Positions 30,651-57,691 of a DNA stretch of 64,000 nucleotides are shown here, piece after piece; positions within the stretch are counted from its first letter, which is position 1; the number at the start of each line of letters is the position of its first letter. The translations under genes and the position numbers were made by a program. The DNA is from Bdellovibrio sp. BCCA. GTDB taxonomy: Bacteria; Bdellovibrionota; Bdellovibrionia; Bdellovibrionales; Bdellovibrionaceae. The notes under the pieces were generated by a model, which ran no database searches, was not told where the DNA came from, and saw only the letters and a list, made by a program, of their open reading frames with translations. Where the stretch lies: the NCBI RefSeq assembly GCF_037996825.1, contig NZ_JBBNAC010000001.1:2480001-2544000 (forward strand), written 5' to 3'.

Positions 30651-31547
30651 ATGTTAAAAAAATTAAACACGCTTCTACTAATCCTCCTGCTCGCAGCCTG
30701 CCAAGCTCAGGACACCGCCCTAAAATCTGCACCCACAGAAGGTTCTGAGACTATCGACGAAAAAGTGATTTATGGCTCGGATGATCGTAAAGATGTTTAC
30801 GAAGTGACTTCTTCGCTGCAAAAACGTTTGGCCGATTCTACCGTCGCCCTCATTAAGGCCAGCTCAGTACAAGCCGGAGCAAACACATCACGAATTGTTT
30901 CCAAGACTTTTAAGGAAACGTATGGTTTGTGTTCCTCGGAACGTTTCGGGGAACAGGAAAATGCGGCGTTTTGCTCGGGTTCTCTTGTCGCTCCTGACAT
31001 CATCGCCACAGCCGGACACTGTGTCCGTTCAGCCAGCGATTGCGCTTCTACGAAGTTTGTTTTTGGTTACGCGGTGAAAGTAAAAGGTGTTTTGCCGCGA
31101 GAGATCGCCAACTCCGAAATCTATTCTTGTGCTGAAGTCATTCATACCGAAGTTCTTGCCAGTGGTTCTGACTTTGCGCTTGTCCGTTTAAATCGCCCTG
31201 TCACCAATCACGCTGTTCTTAAACTTCGTCAAAGAGGTGCCGTGAAAGTCGGTGATCCTTTGGTCGTCATTGGACATCCCGTTGGTCTCCCCACCAAAGT
31301 CGCTGCCGGTGCGAAGGTTCGTAGCGCGCAACCGGATCAGTATTTTGTTGCCAACTTAGACACCTACGGGGGCAACTCAGGCTCTGCAGTTTTTAACTCT
31401 AAGACCGGTGTTGTTGAAGGAATCTTAGTCCGCGGTGACGATGATTTTGAGTACCATGGATCTTGCACCGTCTCACATCGCTGTAAAGACACAGAATGCC
31501 GCGGTGAAGATGTCACACGAATAACAAGAATTCTTCCTTATCTTTGA
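30651..31547 (+). CDS. Trypsin-like serine protease, lipoprotein
   Basis: A 298-residue secreted S1-type protease. The lipobox LLAAC makes Cys17 the lipidation site. The catalytic triad is His123 in ATAGHC, Asp174 in SGSDFALVRL and Ser243 in YGGNSGSAVF. GNSGS instead of GDSGG places it nearer the V8/glutamyl-endopeptidase-like group. Paired cysteines suggest disulfides. It would act on the outer membrane or outside the cell, fitting a predatory lifestyle; the substrate is unknown. It is divergent from the KH gene. Confidence 0.9.
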   Translation: MLKKLNTLLLILLLAACQAQDTALKSAPTEGSETIDEKVIYGSDDRKDVYEVTSSLQKRLADSTVALIKASSVQAGANTSRIVSKTFKETYGLCSSERFGEQENAAFCSGSLVAPDIIATAGHCVRSASDCASTKFVFGYAVKVKGVLPREIANSEIYSCAEVIHTEVLASGSDFALVRLNRPVTNHAVLKLRQRGAVKVGDPLVVIGHPVGLPTKVAAGAKVRSAQPDQYFVANLDTYGGNSGSAVFNSKTGVVEGILVRGDDDFEYHGSCTVSHRCKDTECRGEDVTRITRILPYL

Positions 31548-35638: not shown

Positions 35639-36472
35639 ATGCAAAAAATTTTGCTAATTATTGCCGTGAGCTTTTCGTGTCTGACTGCGTGCTCACGACT
35701 TGATATCGCCTACAATTGGGCGGACACGTTTATTGCCTCTAAAGTTGACGACTACTTTGATATTTCTTCCAAACAAAGCAAAGCCCTTAAAAAATCCCTG
35801 CAACAAGACTTTGAAAAAATGAAGACCGCCGTTCTTCCGGATTGGATCAATAACGCTAAAAAGCTTGAGCGGGATATTGCGCAAAATACATTAAACGAAA
35901 ATAAAATCTCTAGCGTCTTTTCTTTGGTGATAAGAAATGTCGAGCACTTCACGTCTTATTTTACCGATACGGCTGTGAATTTTATCTCGTCAACAGATCC
36001 TCAACAATTGGCTTATTTTTCAAAAGCTTTTCATGAAAAGAATGATGAAGATTTAAAGAAATTCCGCGACACGAAAACATATCAGCGCGAATACAAAGAA
36101 AAATATTATAAGTACTTTAATATGTTCTTGGGTTCTTTAACGGATTCACAGAAGTCCCTGATTGAAAAACACATTCAAGAGTCTCCGTTTCCTTTGGAGC
36201 TTAAGATCAAAAACAAGGAATGGGTTTTTCAAAAGTTTATCAAAGAGTGCAAAACTCCAGAAAGCATGAAAGCGTTCGTGAGGGACTTTTATGCCCATCC
36301 AGAGGCTTACAATGATCCTGCCTACCAGGCGGCTTTTAAGGCTTACCAGAAAGATCTGCAAAACCTTGTAGTGAAAATTCTTTTAAGTCTGAACTCTGAG
36401 CAAAAGAAGGAACTCCTTCAGAACCTGCAAGAAAAGGTCGCTCAGCTGGAAAAAATCCGCAGACGTTCTTAA
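35639..36472 (+). CDS. DUF6279-type lipoprotein
   Basis: A 277-residue lipoprotein with lipobox SCLTAC and Cys at 18. The pattern after the Cys (SRLDIAYNWADTFIASKVDDYFDISSKQSKALKKSL) is like DUF6279 lipoproteins. The rest is charged and helical (NSEQKKELLQNLQEKVAQLEKI near the end). A paralogue at 56861-57691 shares the same plan: DYFxLTSEQ, a SxDQK-type motif, and the same C-terminal repeat. Function is unknown and a periplasmic location is inferred. AGGAGAATC precedes the ATG. Confidence 0.8.
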   Translation: MQKILLIIAVSFSCLTACSRLDIAYNWADTFIASKVDDYFDISSKQSKALKKSLQQDFEKMKTAVLPDWINNAKKLERDIAQNTLNENKISSVFSLVIRNVEHFTSYFTDTAVNFISSTDPQQLAYFSKAFHEKNDEDLKKFRDTKTYQREYKEKYYKYFNMFLGSLTDSQKSLIEKHIQESPFPLELKIKNKEWVFQKFIKECKTPESMKAFVRDFYAHPEAYNDPAYQAAFKAYQKDLQNLVVKILLSLNSEQKKELLQNLQEKVAQLEKIRRRS

Positions 36473-36534: not shown

Positions 36535-37302
36535 ATGAAAATCTTCGCGGTTCTTTTTATTTTTTTGCTTTCATCAGCGAGTTTTGCCAAAGACGATCTA
36601 AAGTCTTTTGCTACAGGCCTGGATAAAACGCTTCGTCACTTAAACCGCTCTGATTCCCGACCTTGTGATGCCGAAAATTTGACGCCTTCTTCAGCTCGTT
36701 TGGTGAGCTACAAAGGTGCTCCGGCCACTGTTATGTCAGAAGAAGATGCCCAGGCTTTATTTACTGAACTTAAAAACAAAAAAGACATTCCCTATGACTT
36801 TTCATTGGCGGGTTGTGAGCAGCGTGCTCATGAGATGTCTCGGTTGATGTTATTAAAAGGGATTACGCCACTTAAAGGTTTTGCTTCGGTGGACGAAAAT
36901 AAATCTCCCCGCTTGGAAATTCCTCACCCCAGAAAAAAAGGCGAACGCATTCGCTGGAAATATCACGTCGCTCCCGTTGTTTTAATTGAGAAAAAAGGCG
37001 AGCTTATTCCATTCACCATTGATCCTTCAATGGAAACGAAAGCTGTTCCCACCTCTCAATGGGTGGGGGACATGTCTAAGCACAATAAATCCATGAACGT
37101 GAAATTGCAGTTCACTCCGGCGAACCAATATGACGTCGACGGTCGTTTGCGCATAGATCCCCGTGATAAAGAGTTCAGTCAATCCAACCAAGAGTCTTTG
37201 CGTGAGTTTAAAAAATACAGCGAAGACCCTCGTGGTGAAGAAGAATGGATGTTCCAGCAGCAATTGATGGAAGATAAATTGAACTCGATGCCCGGCTATT
37301 GA
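36535..37302 (+). CDS. Secreted protein-glutaminase-like deamidase
   Basis: A 255-residue protein with signal peptide MKIFAVLFIFLLSSASFA. The start is ATG at 36535; a GTG lies just before it. The motifs match the Chryseobacterium protein-glutaminase family: AGCEQRAHEM (Cys94), IRWKYHVAP (His144) and TIDPSME (Asp163), which form the Cys-His-Asp triad. Such enzymes convert protein-bound glutamine to glutamate and thereby alter protein function or solubility. It would act in the periplasm or be exported further. For a predator, prey proteins are possible targets, but this is inference. It stands alone, followed by a terminator. Confidence 0.8.
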   Translation: MKIFAVLFIFLLSSASFAKDDLKSFATGLDKTLRHLNRSDSRPCDAENLTPSSARLVSYKGAPATVMSEEDAQALFTELKNKKDIPYDFSLAGCEQRAHEMSRLMLLKGITPLKGFASVDENKSPRLEIPHPRKKGERIRWKYHVAPVVLIEKKGELIPFTIDPSMETKAVPTSQWVGDMSKHNKSMNVKLQFTPANQYDVDGRLRIDPRDKEFSQSNQESLREFKKYSEDPRGEEEWMFQQQLMEDKLNSMPGY

Positions 37303-44305: not shown

Positions 44306-44764
44306 ATGGCATTTAAACTACGAGACAACGAAGAAATTAAAATGAAAGCCACATTCCATTGGTCAGACTATCTTGTTGCAGGCTTCTGGGCATTCATTTG
44401 CACGCCTGGATTTTTTGTATCAATGGCTGACGATTCCAATCGCATGCCTTCACCTGTATTTTTTGCGATTGTTGCCTATGCTCCTTTGCTATACAAAATC
44501 CTCAAGAATAGATCAAAAAAATATTTAATAACAAATCAGCGTCTTTACATTGAAAACGGAATTTTAACAAAAACTGCAACAGATGTTCCCCTAAATAAAA
44601 TCAATGATATTGCATTTTCTCAAAATTTTATCGAAAGACTTTTTGATGTTGGGAGTCTCAGCATCTTAACTGGGAACGATAAAGGAAATAACGTTAAAGG
44701 TATTGTCAATCCAGAAGGCTTTCGAGAATGCCTAAGTAAATACTGCAACCATAAAGCATCATGA
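44306..44764 (+). CDS. Membrane protein with bacterial PH domain (bPH2)
   Basis: A 152-residue protein with two membrane helices (about 22-42 and 48-68) followed by a bPH2 domain (about 72-148) with YLITNQRLYIENGILTK and VPLNKINDIAFSQNFIERLF, the usual pattern of that domain. It should lie in the inner membrane with the PH fold in the cytoplasm. Its stop overlaps the start of the DUF4917 gene (ATGA), so they are coupled. In an antiviral cassette it may be the membrane anchor or sensor. Confidence 0.85.
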   Translation: MAFKLRDNEEIKMKATFHWSDYLVAGFWAFICTPGFFVSMADDSNRMPSPVFFAIVAYAPLLYKILKNRSKKYLITNQRLYIENGILTKTATDVPLNKINDIAFSQNFIERLFDVGSLSILTGNDKGNNVKGIVNPEGFRECLSKYCNHKAS

Positions 44765-45801
44765 AAAAAATAGAGCTTAAAAGATTTGACGACTGCATAA
44801 AATCGGCAGTCAGCAAGAAAAAGCATGTCTTACTGGGAAATGGCTTCAGTCGCGCTTGCAGAAATGAAGTATTCTCTTATGACTCTCTCTTCAAATCAGC
44901 GGACTTCAGTAGGCTTTCTGTTGAGGCAAAACAGATATTTCAACTACTAGATACGACGGATTTTGAAATCGTCATGAAGTCCTTAAATGTATCAGCGACT
45001 ATTATGCCTATCTACGGCTGTGCTGCAGATATATCAAATCGCGCTCAATCGGACTCTGGTTTCTTGCGCAGCATTTTGGTCAACACAATTGCAAAACATC
45101 ATCCTCCCTTACCATCTAGCATATCGGAAGAGGAGTATGCGAACTGCATAAAATTCTTATCAAACTTCGACAAAATATACTCTCTCAACTATGACCTTCT
45201 ATTGTACTGGACACTTATGAAGCAAAGAGAGCTGGGAGGCTCAGAGAAAGACGATGGATTTCGAGATCCATCGGAAATTGAAAATGAGATATCTACCGAG
45301 GACGGGTATGTCGCATGGGCAAACGACACCCACGGACAAAATATTCACTATATTCACGGCGCACTTCATATATTTTACCAAAAAGCTCTCCTACAAAAAT
45401 TCTGCTGGAGTAGAACAGGCACGCGTCTCTTAGAACAAATCGACACAGCCTTGAAGAGTGGAAAATTTCCCCTGATAGTAGCAGAAGGTACAGCAAATCA
45501 AAAACTCGAAAGAATTCAAAAGAGTAACTATTTAGGGTTTAACTTTCGAAGTCTCCGAAATTGTACTGGAACATTATTTACCTTTGGAGTTTCCTTTGGA
45601 GACGCTGACAAACATATTATGACGCAAATTCAAAAAAACACTCGCCTGGAAAAAATTTGTGTTTCGGTCTTTGGTGATATAGACAGTGAAAACAATCTTC
45701 AAATGATCCAGTCCCTTGAAACAATTACGAATGATCGTCCCGCTTCAAAACCGCTCACATTAGAGTTTTACGAAGCAAATTCCGCAAGGGTGTGGAAGTA
45801 A
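44761..45801 (+). CDS. DUF4917 (SIR2-like) protein
   Basis: A 346-residue protein. HVLLGNGFSRAC near the start, SLNYDLLLYW near 147 and YIHGALHIFY near 200 are the motifs I associate with DUF4917, a Rossmann-like group related to SIR2 domains in defence systems. SIR2-like defence proteins often hydrolyse NAD+ when phage is sensed. The N in GNGFS and the H in IHGALH could be active-site residues. The function in this member is not shown. It overlaps the bPH2 gene by four bases and is followed after five bases by a membrane-protein gene. Confidence 0.8.
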   Translation: MKKIELKRFDDCIKSAVSKKKHVLLGNGFSRACRNEVFSYDSLFKSADFSRLSVEAKQIFQLLDTTDFEIVMKSLNVSATIMPIYGCAADISNRAQSDSGFLRSILVNTIAKHHPPLPSSISEEEYANCIKFLSNFDKIYSLNYDLLLYWTLMKQRELGGSEKDDGFRDPSEIENEISTEDGYVAWANDTHGQNIHYIHGALHIFYQKALLQKFCWSRTGTRLLEQIDTALKSGKFPLIVAEGTANQKLERIQKSNYLGFNFRSLRNCTGTLFTFGVSFGDADKHIMTQIQKNTRLEKICVSVFGDIDSENNLQMIQSLETITNDRPASKPLTLEFYEANSARVWK

Positions 45802-47280: not shown

Positions 47281-48222
47281 CTATTTCTTGACCCATTTGG
47301 CATCCCAATTGGCTGAATTTAATTTATTTTTCAGCTCATCTCCATATTTTGCAATAAGACTGCGATAAAAACCGCTCTCAATAGAATCAATATATGCAAT
47401 TTCTCCAGCTAAAGATTTCATATGCTCCGGAGACAAATTTCCAGTCAACGCTCGATGAATTTTCGCTCTCAAAAATTTTTTTCTAACTCTACCAACACTT
47501 AAACTCGAATCGCTTGTAACTGTCACTCCAGTTATAATTACCTTCTTCTTTTTTGAAACGTGGACAGTTTTGGCTGTATTCAATTTTAATTTGAGATCCG
47601 TGAAGTCCGATAACACTGACATTATCTCCTTGTCACAGTCACTTAAACGATTCGGATACTCGGATGACAAACATATATCATCTGCGTAGCGTGTATATAC
47701 AACGCCTCTATTTGCCATCCGTTCTGCAAACTCTTTATCAAATTCATACATAATCAAATTTGACAGAATCGGTGAAGATGGAGCACCTATAACGAGTTGT
47801 CCCTTCTTACAGCAAATATTTGTTATTAAAGTCAAATCACTTGCTGGTAAGTTAATTCCTCTCGCCTCTAAATTTCTCTTAAGCATTGATTGGATATTGT
47901 GAGCTTTGATAGACGGAAAGAAGTCGGAAAAATCAAACTTAACGAAATATTTGCTCCGCACATGCTGATTTGCATTATGAGCAATTCCTTTACCTTTTAC
48001 ATATGCTGTCGCCGCAGAGTGAACGGGCAACCTCGAAAACAACATCTCAATGAGCACGCGTTGAAGAAATTTTACTTCCTTTGATGGTTGTTCGACAGTT
48101 CGAGTGCCACCCTTCTTTTTCGGAATTTTATATACCTTATATCGATGTGATGCTGTATTGGCAAACGCCATCAATCCCCACTGAGTAAGTCCTGAAACCT
48201 CAGCTACCATTTCCAGAATCAC
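47281..48222 (-). CDS. Retron reverse transcriptase
   Basis: A 313-residue reverse transcriptase starting at GTG 48220-48222, with AAGGAG nine bases upstream and a four-base overlap with the effector gene. Catalytic YADD is at 179-182 in TRYADDICLSSE, the first Asp lies in VKFDFSDFFPSI, and APSSPILSN is motif 4. Two retron marks are present: NANQH at 83-87 (the NAxxH motif) and ITG at 230-232 (retron 'VTG' region) in KKKKVIITGVTV. It should copy the msd part of the adjacent ncRNA into 2'-5'-branched msDNA. The size is that of short retron RTs such as Eco1. Confidence 0.95.
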   Translation of the reverse strand: MILEMVAEVSGLTQWGLMAFANTASHRYKVYKIPKKKGGTRTVEQPSKEVKFLQRVLIEMLFSRLPVHSAATAYVKGKGIAHNANQHVRSKYFVKFDFSDFFPSIKAHNIQSMLKRNLEARGINLPASDLTLITNICCKKGQLVIGAPSSPILSNLIMYEFDKEFAERMANRGVVYTRYADDICLSSEYPNRLSDCDKEIMSVLSDFTDLKLKLNTAKTVHVSKKKKVIITGVTVTSDSSLSVGRVRKKFLRAKIHRALTGNLSPEHMKSLAGEIAYIDSIESGFYRSLIAKYGDELKNKLNSANWDAKWVKK

Positions 48223-49154
48223 AGCACAAACTCCTTAACTTGGAATAATTGAGGTCGAATTCTTTTATAATAACTTTTCACTTTGAGAAGAAGCACGTTC
48301 TCATCAATGTTTCTAAGTTCAACAAGTGGGTGGACGGCATTATTATTTTTCACCACCAATGAGCCATCGGCCTCGTAGATATCGACGTATTTAATTCCTT
48401 TAAGAATCCCAACGTAATCCCTTAGCTCACGAAACTCGAATTGCCCAAATAGATGCAAAATGACTTCTTTAAGATCTTCTATTGAAATAGCACCAAAAAT
48501 ATCGATGATCTTATAGATCAAATGGAGACGATGCCGATGATCCATTTCCTTGAAATTTTTTTGAAGAATTTTCTTTGAGCTTTTATTTGAACCGTTAATG
48601 CGCTCATGAAGACGAGTCCTAACACGATCAAATTCAATTACTTGGGCCTTAAAATCTATATGTACCTTCGTGCGAAAATCAGACTCTCGATCAATCAAAT
48701 CAATGGGCCCTTTGTTCAAGAAAGAATCTTTTTGCTCGTCCCCGCAATTAACAATTAGAGTCTTTTTTCGTATTTCTTCACTTTTCGCAAAATAACCGAC
48801 TTCGGCAAAAGACCCAGGGCTCTCAGGAAAGATAATCACGCAGTCGGAAATATCAGCTAAGATTTCTTCAAATAAGGCTATATTATTATAACGAATCTGA
48901 TTGAGACCATCTGCAGACTCGGCGGCGGCTTCAGCTAACACTATTTCATAATCCGGGAGCTCTGTTGCTGCATAGGCAAGAAACTTGCTTCGAACAGAGA
49001 ATATAGTAGTTTCCCCATTTTTTTTATCGTTACCACCGCAAACAAAAATAAAGGGTCTATTATATCTTAGGAAAGCCTTTTCACTGCATAATGCATTTTT
49101 CAACTCGCTCAACAATGCACTTGCAGTATTATTGGTGGCTAAATTTTCAAACAT
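48219..49154 (-). CDS. Retron effector (St85/Eco1-type, nucleoside deoxyribosyltransferase-like)
   Basis: A 311-residue protein that starts at the ATG at 49152-49154, six bases after the end of the ncRNA. Its N-terminal half is Rossmann-like with FIFVCGGND, YEIVLAEAAAE and CVIIFPESPGSFAEVGYF (about 105-123); the SPGSxxExGYF motif is the active-site region of nucleoside deoxyribosyltransferase-like domains and is typical of the 'retron St85 family effector'. The C-terminal half (about 205-310) looks like a winged-helix module. In Eco1 this effector is bound by msDNA and RT and is toxic when the complex is disturbed. The gene order ncRNA-effector-RT is the same as in Eco1. Confidence 0.9.
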   Translation of the reverse strand: MFENLATNNTASALLSELKNALCSEKAFLRYNRPFIFVCGGNDKKNGETTIFSVRSKFLAYAATELPDYEIVLAEAAAESADGLNQIRYNNIALFEEILADISDCVIIFPESPGSFAEVGYFAKSEEIRKKTLIVNCGDEQKDSFLNKGPIDLIDRESDFRTKVHIDFKAQVIEFDRVRTRLHERINGSNKSSKKILQKNFKEMDHRHRLHLIYKIIDIFGAISIEDLKEVILHLFGQFEFRELRDYVGILKGIKYVDIYEADGSLVVKNNNAVHPLVELRNIDENVLLLKVKSYYKRIRPQLFQVKEFVL

Positions 49155-49159
49155 CAAAA

Positions 49160-49697: not shown

Positions 49698-49774
<77 letters not shown>

Positions 49775-56274: not shown

Positions 56275-56864
56275 TGCAACCGAATTCTTCCGCCAGTCCG
56301 AAAGCTCAAGCCGCCAGTCTTTTCTTTGCGGGTCTTCTTCCCGTTATCGCCTTTACTTTGATTGAAGAGTATTATGGAACCGTGGCCGGTCTTATTGCCG
56401 GGATGGTTTTTGGTGTCGGTGAAATTTCTTGGGAACTTTATAAATATAAAAAAGTTCAAAAGCTCACTTGGTTCGGAAACGGAATGCTTTTTATTCTCGG
56501 AGGCATTTCACTAATTTCGTCTGAAGGTCTTTGGTTTAAACTTCAACCCGCTTTGATGGAAGGATTTTTCGCTTTGATCTTGTGGGGCTCCGTCATTATG
56601 AAAAAACCTTTGTTCGTGTATCTCGCTGAACAACAAGGTCATCAGTTTCCGGATATTGTCAAAACCCGGATGAATGGTATCACGATTCGCTCTGGATTTT
56701 TCTTTGCTATTCACACAGGACTTGCCGTTTGGGCCGCACTGGCATGGAGCACGACGGCCTGGGCTCTGCTCAAAGGTATTGGTCTTACCGTAAGTTTCAT
56801 TCTGTATCTTATCATGGAGGGTTTTCTCTTAAGGAGAGCCGTTTTAAAACAAAAGGCAGAATGA
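56274..56864 (+). CDS. YciB/IspZ-like inner-membrane protein
   Basis: A 196-residue membrane protein with about five helices. The pattern LPVIAFTLIEEYYGTVAGLIAGMVFG, YKKVQKLTWFGNGMLFILGGISL and ILWGSVIMKKPLFVYLAEQQG follows the intracellular septation protein A (YciB) family, in which a KKPL motif after helix 3 is conserved. YciB is linked to envelope synthesis and septation. It overlaps the dihydroorotase stop and its own stop overlaps the lipoprotein start (ATGA), so three genes are coupled. Confidence 0.8.
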   Translation: MQPNSSASPKAQAASLFFAGLLPVIAFTLIEEYYGTVAGLIAGMVFGVGEISWELYKYKKVQKLTWFGNGMLFILGGISLISSEGLWFKLQPALMEGFFALILWGSVIMKKPLFVYLAEQQGHQFPDIVKTRMNGITIRSGFFFAIHTGLAVWAALAWSTTAWALLKGIGLTVSFILYLIMEGFLLRRAVLKQKAE

Positions 56865-57691
56865 GATATGCATTACTGATTTTTTTTGTCATAGCTTTAA
56901 GTGCCTGCAACAGATCGGATATTTTCTTCCGATTTGCTGATGATCTTGCTGTTTCCAAAACAGATGACTATTTCAATCTTACAAGTGAACAACGCGACGA
57001 TCTTCGTAAAGACGTGCAAAAGGACATTCAGAATATCAAAAAAGAACTTTTGCCTCAAGTCGCAAAAACTTTGCGAGAGATCGAACCTGAAGTTCAAAAA
57101 GACAAACCCAATGCCGAGCTGATCTCTCGCCATTTTGATGAATTTCAGAATTATTTTAAAAAAGTTTCCGCTTACTTTAAAAACACCGCTGTCAAAGTTT
57201 CGTTGAAACTTAAATCTGATCAATACACTCACTTCGCCAAAGAACTTCGAGACGAGATCAAAGAAACTGAAAGCAGCAATGAGCTTCCTGAAGATTCCTT
57301 AAATCAAACCTTTAAACGCTATCGCAGGTCGATTGAATTTTGGATCGGCGGCCTTTCAAATGATCAGAAAGAAAAGATTAAGAAATTTATCAGCACTCAT
57401 CCTTATCCATGGCGATTGCAAAACCAGAGCAAAGAATTTGTCTTAAAGCAGTTTTTGGATTCTAAAGAAAATCCCGAGAAATTAAAAAAATTCGTAGCGG
57501 ATTTTTACGACGATTTTGAAGCCGTAAGACTTCCGGCCTACACGACAGCCCTCAACGAACATACAAAGGCTTTTCAGAGATTTCTCATTGAAGAATTCTG
57601 GCAAAGCCTTTCAAAAGAACAAAAAAAGAATTTAAAAGAAAATCTTTTAGCGCGCGCAGAAGAACTCGAAAAGATTTCTCAGCGCCCTTGA
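56861..57691 (+). CDS. DUF6279-type lipoprotein, second copy
   Basis: A 276-residue lipoprotein starting at ATG 56861, which overlaps the upstream stop; the longer frame from 56729 runs inside the YciB-like gene. Lipobox ALSAC. Like the protein at 35639-36472, it has DYFxxTSEQ near residue 40, helical charged segments, an NDQKEKIKKFISTHPYP block (compare SQKSLIEKHIQESPFP there), and KNLKENLLARAEELEKI at the end. The two are clear paralogues of about the same size. Function unknown. Confidence 0.82.
   Translation: MRYALLIFFVIALSACNRSDIFFRFADDLAVSKTDDYFNLTSEQRDDLRKDVQKDIQNIKKELLPQVAKTLREIEPEVQKDKPNAELISRHFDEFQNYFKKVSAYFKNTAVKVSLKLKSDQYTHFAKELRDEIKETESSNELPEDSLNQTFKRYRRSIEFWIGGLSNDQKEKIKKFISTHPYPWRLQNQSKEFVLKQFLDSKENPEKLKKFVADFYDDFEAVRLPAYTTALNEHTKAFQRFLIEEFWQSLSKEQKKNLKENLLARAEELEKISQRP

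Follow-up and report, generated by a model that had tools for sequence, protein, structure and literature searches.

The 64,000-nucleotide stretch of the Bdellovibrio sp. BCCA genome analysed here (the window) contains a gene whose product was originally predicted, from the letters of the DNA, to be an exported deamidase resembling the Chryseobacterium protein-glutaminase. The papain-like fold is also found in proteases, acyltransferases and transglutaminases. The locus raises the questions of whether the encoded protein is a glutamine deamidase, how it is related to the known enzymes, and how such an enzyme might spare the bacterium that makes it. Here we show by computation that the protein has an export signal and the protein-glutaminase fold and triad, and that it is conserved. 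We consider it fairly probable that it is an exported protein-glutamine deamidase with pro-segment latency, which would most likely act where the predator digests the proteins of a prey cell that it has invaded.

Gene and protein organization

The open reading frame and the motifs GCEQRAH, WKYHVAP and IDPS lie where the original prediction had placed them, and the motifs contain the triad residues Cys94, His144 and Asp163, respectively (Table 1). An ATG opens the gene, with an in-frame GTG 3 bases upstream of it, and the last base of the stop codon is the last base of the gene. The hydrophobic N-terminus, with small residues at positions −3 and −1, reads as the signal peptide MKIFAVLFIFLLSSASFA followed by KDD, and genus orthologues are alike in this respect; export of the protein, as first proposed, fits this predicted Sec signal peptide. 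The earlier figure of ~75 residues preceding the catalytic cysteine is correct after subtraction of the 18-residue signal peptide, and a putative pro-segment lies within these 75 residues. It comprises a helix (residues ~22–36), Cys44 and the start of a β-hairpin (residues 55–67).

Table 1 Features of the protein-glutaminase-like locus, in window coordinates
Feature	Coordinates	Strand	Basis
Protein-glutaminase-like gene, 255 aa	36535..37302	+	Open reading frame; PF18626, E 5.1e-27; fold matches
Predicted signal peptide, residues 1–18	36535..36588	+	Cleavage between ASFA and KDD, by eye
N-terminal pro-segment, residues 19–62, ~44 aa	36589..36720	+	Conservation; profile overlap with the 3a56 pro-region
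Cys44	36664..36666	+	Sole non-catalytic Cys of the mature protein; invariant in 15/15 aligned genus sequences
Gln_deamidase_2 catalytic domain, residues 72–180	36748..37074	+	PF18626 match
Cys94, catalytic nucleophile	36814..36816	+	Aligns with the protein-glutaminase catalytic Cys; 112/112 non-redundant members
His144, triad	36964..36966	+	Alignments with relatives and protein-glutaminases
Asp163, triad	37021..37023	+	Alignments with relatives and protein-glutaminases
Trp176, beside the active-site motifs	37060..37062	+	Invariant in 22/22; W in 107/112
C-terminal helical tail, residues 206–255	37150..37299	+	Less conserved (mean identity 0.42); two helices in models
DUF6279 lipoprotein-like gene, upstream neighbour	35639..36472	+	PF19795, E 2.3e-15

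Family membership and triad conservation

The Pfam profile PF18626 (Gln_deamidase_2) aligns with the protein along the whole profile (positions 1–106 of 106) and scores 94.6 bits, where the curated cut-off is 25. In an alignment of 22 sequences with identities down to 19%, the only invariant columns are Cys94, His144, Asp163 and Trp176. The score over the full profile, together with the invariance of these four residues, argues that the motif match is not due to chance. The triad is complete in 107 of the 112 non-redundant Bdellovibrionota members; three of the five incomplete triads reflect alignment gaps, in rows that are truncated or only partly aligned, and the other two (L107 and L186) have another residue at the His column. 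L107, in which the catalytic motif lies at residue 118 of the open reading frame, keeps the catalytic Cys and has an Asn at the His column; it is perhaps inactive or misaligned.

Fold and nearest structural neighbours

A search of the PDB with the single sequence gave weak matches, the best of which was 8z3i (E 0.006). With a profile of 22 relatives, protein-glutaminases were the only matches up to E 1, and all five distinct sequences were recovered, at E values between 1.1e-27 and 6.6e-21 and with matching positions of the triad residues. We built two AlphaFold2 models, each from three input sequences and the second without the signal peptide; their mean pLDDT values of 64.3 and 67.9 are middling, since only three sequences were used. 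Protein-glutaminases ranked first for both models (Foldseek E 1.6e-7 and 3.3e-6), and the best VIA-align match was 8z3i (Z 11.4; rmsd 3.1 and 3.2 over 138 and 135 residues), with TM-scores against protein-glutaminases of 0.38–0.55. The predicted structures, at moderate confidence, thus point to the protein-glutaminase fold that the original prediction had named, and not to a different fold, which would have contradicted it.

Other glutamine deamidases occupied the next ranks, namely human NTAQ1 (PDB 4w79 and 3c9q), a glutamine amidohydrolase of related fold and 10–18% identity (Z 7.7 and 8.4), and SseI (Z 6.9 and 7.1). Human NTAQ1 is not known to have a signal peptide. Transglutaminase structures were among the listed matches at Z ~4 to 5 (transglutaminase 2, 5.1), and N-acetyltransferases reached 5.2. 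These ranks bear on the reading that the protein is a papain-like enzyme of other chemistry, such as a transglutaminase, acyltransferase or protease, with the predator's own envelope as its target: such enzymes do share the fold at these lower Z values, but protein-glutaminases came first in every search, standing ~6 Z units higher in the one that gave the values for transglutaminase 2 and the N-acetyltransferases, and glutamine deamidases came next. We regard this reading as improbable. The preferred assignment as a glutamine deamidase draws its putative specificity from the fold neighbours, one of which, NTAQ1, is described as acting on N-terminal glutamine (PMC4214742).

Relationship to known protein-glutaminases

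The match to the Chryseobacterium enzyme stands at the superfamily level, in fold and triad, and does not extend to orthology: identity is 20–25%, and the NCBIfam equivalog model for the Chryseobacterium-type protein-glutaminase (NF040782) gives 29.1 bits, below its cut-off of 250. Judged from these comparisons, the window gene and the Chryseobacterium gene are not orthologous, and the former represents a separate branch that is common in the phylum. With the Chryseobacterium proteolyticum protein-glutaminase (PDB 2zk9, 2ksv, 3a54 and 3a56), the protein shares the Cys-His-Asp triad, the order of the motifs and the fold, and like that enzyme, which is secreted with a pro-segment, it is predicted to be exported with one. 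However, the mature domain of the C. proteolyticum enzyme has several extra cysteines, whereas the mature Bdellovibrio protein has none but Cys44. The pattern also differs from that of Flavobacterium sp. 316 FBPG (PDB 8z3i), the top PDB match by both structure and sequence (~22% identity), which has cysteines at −18, −10, +18 and +37 in the stretch compared.

Three PF18626 genes are present in the Bdellovibrio sp. BCCA genome. The paralogue G000:C1:3732665 and its copies in the genus (for example, G006:C1:3709821) belong to PF18626 and have the same triad, but lack a Cys at −50 and carry a Cys pair at +90/+101 instead. The other paralogue, G000:C1:214904, also a PF18626 member, has a Cys at −56 from the catalytic Cys, and its N-terminus is longer than that of the window protein, with two more cysteines. 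In a core-domain tree of 65 of the 67 relatives found by regular expression (two, in which the full motif is absent, were skipped) and two PDB fragments, the Chryseobacterium and Flavobacterium enzymes group with G000:C1:3732665 and its genus copies, and not with the window gene; support joining these groups is weak (0.41–0.77).

A short pro-segment with an invariant cysteine

The earlier remark that no propeptide of the usual kind is obvious has to be corrected, as there is a short conserved pro-segment that overlaps the known pro-region: the alignment of the family profile covers the last part of that region, over ~20 residues (3a56 chain, from residue 94). The pro-sequence of the C. proteolyticum enzyme is given as 114 aa (PMC6132073), as against ~44 aa here. 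Mean pairwise identity within the genus is 0.56 for residues 21–40, 0.62 for the domain and 0.32 for residues 41–54, and Cys44 is invariant in all 15 genus sequences although the residues around it are so poorly conserved. Cys44 and the catalytic Cys are the only mature cysteines in 13 of the 15 sequences, L015 and L016 having one more.

Because the catalytic Cys is the only possible intramolecular partner of this conserved lone Cys44, the pattern suggests a disulfide latch, which would extend the preferred reading. A Cys44–Cys94 bond would block the active site in the oxidising periplasm. Activity would begin either with reduction of this bond, which the contents of dying prey might bring about, or with removal of the pro-segment by cleavage. 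We put this forward tentatively, leaning somewhat against it. In its favour are the presence of exactly two mature cysteines, the invariance of Cys44 and the cysteine positions across the family. These positions were counted in 88 members: the 112 non-redundant members were reduced to 97 that are shorter than 400 aa and have no triad gap, and nine were then dropped because a heuristic found no signal peptide in them, the start and cleavage calls being rough. In the first cysteine table, members had been found by regular expression. A Cys 46–75 residues before the catalytic Cys occurs in 54 of the 64 non-PG-like members whose N-terminal segment is long, compared with 4 of 14 short-segment members and 0 of 10 PG-like members. 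Where a member has exactly two cysteines, the partner falls in this interval in 23 of 26 cases (3.3 expected if uniform). Also in favour of the latch, members of a small clade carry a Cys at −6 from the catalytic Cys, the position of the papain oxyanion-hole glutamine, in most cases instead of the far one, and CxxC versions exist (L015, L053, L060, L064 and L097).

Several observations weigh against the latch. Among the remaining long-segment members, five have a Cys 1–12 residues before the catalytic Cys instead, but five have neither, and mistakes in signal-peptide calling may account for some of the short segments. Clustering at 50% identity lowers the counts to 20 of 28 long-segment members and 3 of 5 two-cysteine members. 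Furthermore, residues 22–48 are below pLDDT 50 in the models, including the second, which was built to place Cys44. The most far-reaching version, in which a phylum-wide Bdellovibrionota branch uses a cysteine of the shortened pro-segment to clamp the catalytic Cys by a disulfide, so that the deamidase is redox-switched, staying silent in the predator periplasm and becoming active in the reducing contents of broken prey, is in our judgement unlikely.

Distribution in the genus and phylum

A close orthologue (E < 1e-40) is found in 15 of the 23 other genus genomes, for example at G006:C1:2749872–2750639, and one copy (G014) is cut by a contig end. None was found in 8 of the 24 genus genomes, one of which (G010) is 88% complete. 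Since part of the genus has no close orthologue, the gene is accessory and not essential for the lifestyle of the genus. PF18626 is widespread in the phylum: with matches accepted up to E 0.001, 159 of 241 genomes have it (154 of them above the curated cut-off), with up to 12 copies per genome, whereas none of 14 control genomes does. Although the family is this widespread, the titles and opening parts of abstracts in the literature on Bdellovibrio with deamidase or glutaminase yielded no report linking Bdellovibrio with a protein-glutaminase, and the passages searched in PMC12546842, PMC2797640, PMC7174725 and PMC3627812 do not mention glutaminase. Titles and abstracts on redox-controlled relatives likewise contained nothing about the PF18626 family.

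Other Bdellovibrionota also encode proteins of ~520–630 aa (L049, L052, L054 and others) in which PF18626 lies near the C-terminus, preceded by a long cysteine-bearing N-terminal part; for L054, PF18626 was the only Pfam family matched.

Genomic context

In 6 of 12 genus genomes the gene immediately upstream, on the same strand, belongs to DUF6279, an arrangement that is frequent but not constant. In two further genomes, G005 and G020, another DUF6279 copy is ~2 kb away and both copies lie in the same genome region, so we read the association as regional synteny. DUF6279 is present in one or two copies in each of the 12 genus genomes and in none of the 14 controls; within the window, a second lipoprotein-like copy (56729–57691, +) lies ~21 kb from the first. 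The downstream neighbour, a hybrid histidine kinase, is likewise not constant across genus genomes. As the neighbours are not constant, an operon or immunity partner was rejected. A scan for promoters and terminators gave chance-level results. A mobile origin was also rejected, since tblastn gave no plasmid or phage match and viral contigs contained none; a blastn search of one relative's locus against plasmids gave no match.

The neighbourhood bears on a further alternative, that the protein is delivered as an effector with a single prey protein to deamidate, in the manner of the targeted effector deamidases that pathogens use. The protein has the same fold class as effector deamidases, and one survey of papain-like enzymes describes PF18626 members as protein glutaminases and places them close to type IVb secretion genes (PMC10318531). 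However, the predicted signal peptide is a plain Sec type, the neighbours vary, and no secretion-system, adaptor or immunity gene was recognised among the open reading frames listed beside the gene or, on reading by eye, in five rearranged loci. Because neither an immunity gene nor a delivery system is indicated nearby, we favour a general digestive enzyme over a specific injected effector, which we consider quite unlikely.

Elsewhere in the window, an open reading frame (30651–31547, +) reads by eye as an exported trypsin-like serine protease (TAGHC and GNSGSA motifs) and could be a processing protease. Downstream, a Type II-A retron (47281–49157, −), with a reverse transcriptase (RT_II-A, E 1e-106) and a nucleoside deoxyribosyltransferase-like effector (NDT_II-A, E 7.7e-53), adjoins a tRNA-Met gene (49698–49774). 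With the candidate defence protein PDC-S21 (44761–45801, +; E 3.7e-113), the retron suggests a small defence island.

Discussion

For the preferred reading, an exported protein-glutamine deamidase, we propose the following mechanism. The amidohydrolase would be synthesised as a precursor whose Sec signal peptide is followed by a short pro-segment, and the latter probably prevents activity before the protein has left the predator's cytoplasm. Cys94, which His144 and Asp163 activate, would then attack glutamine side chains in proteins or peptides; ammonia would be released and glutamate left. The latency, the site of action and the substrates are what we infer, and the likeliest setting would be the digestion of prey protein inside the invaded cell. 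The modification of prey proteins, with which the original prediction had linked the enzyme, is plausible.

Glutamine deamidation, if it occurs, would be a little-studied step of prey digestion, and the cysteine pattern leads to a simple proposal for how the enzyme spares its maker. The Bdellovibrionota branch, distinct from the Chryseobacterium enzyme and with a possible cysteine latch, belongs to a family that provides natural variants of an enzyme with uses in food production.
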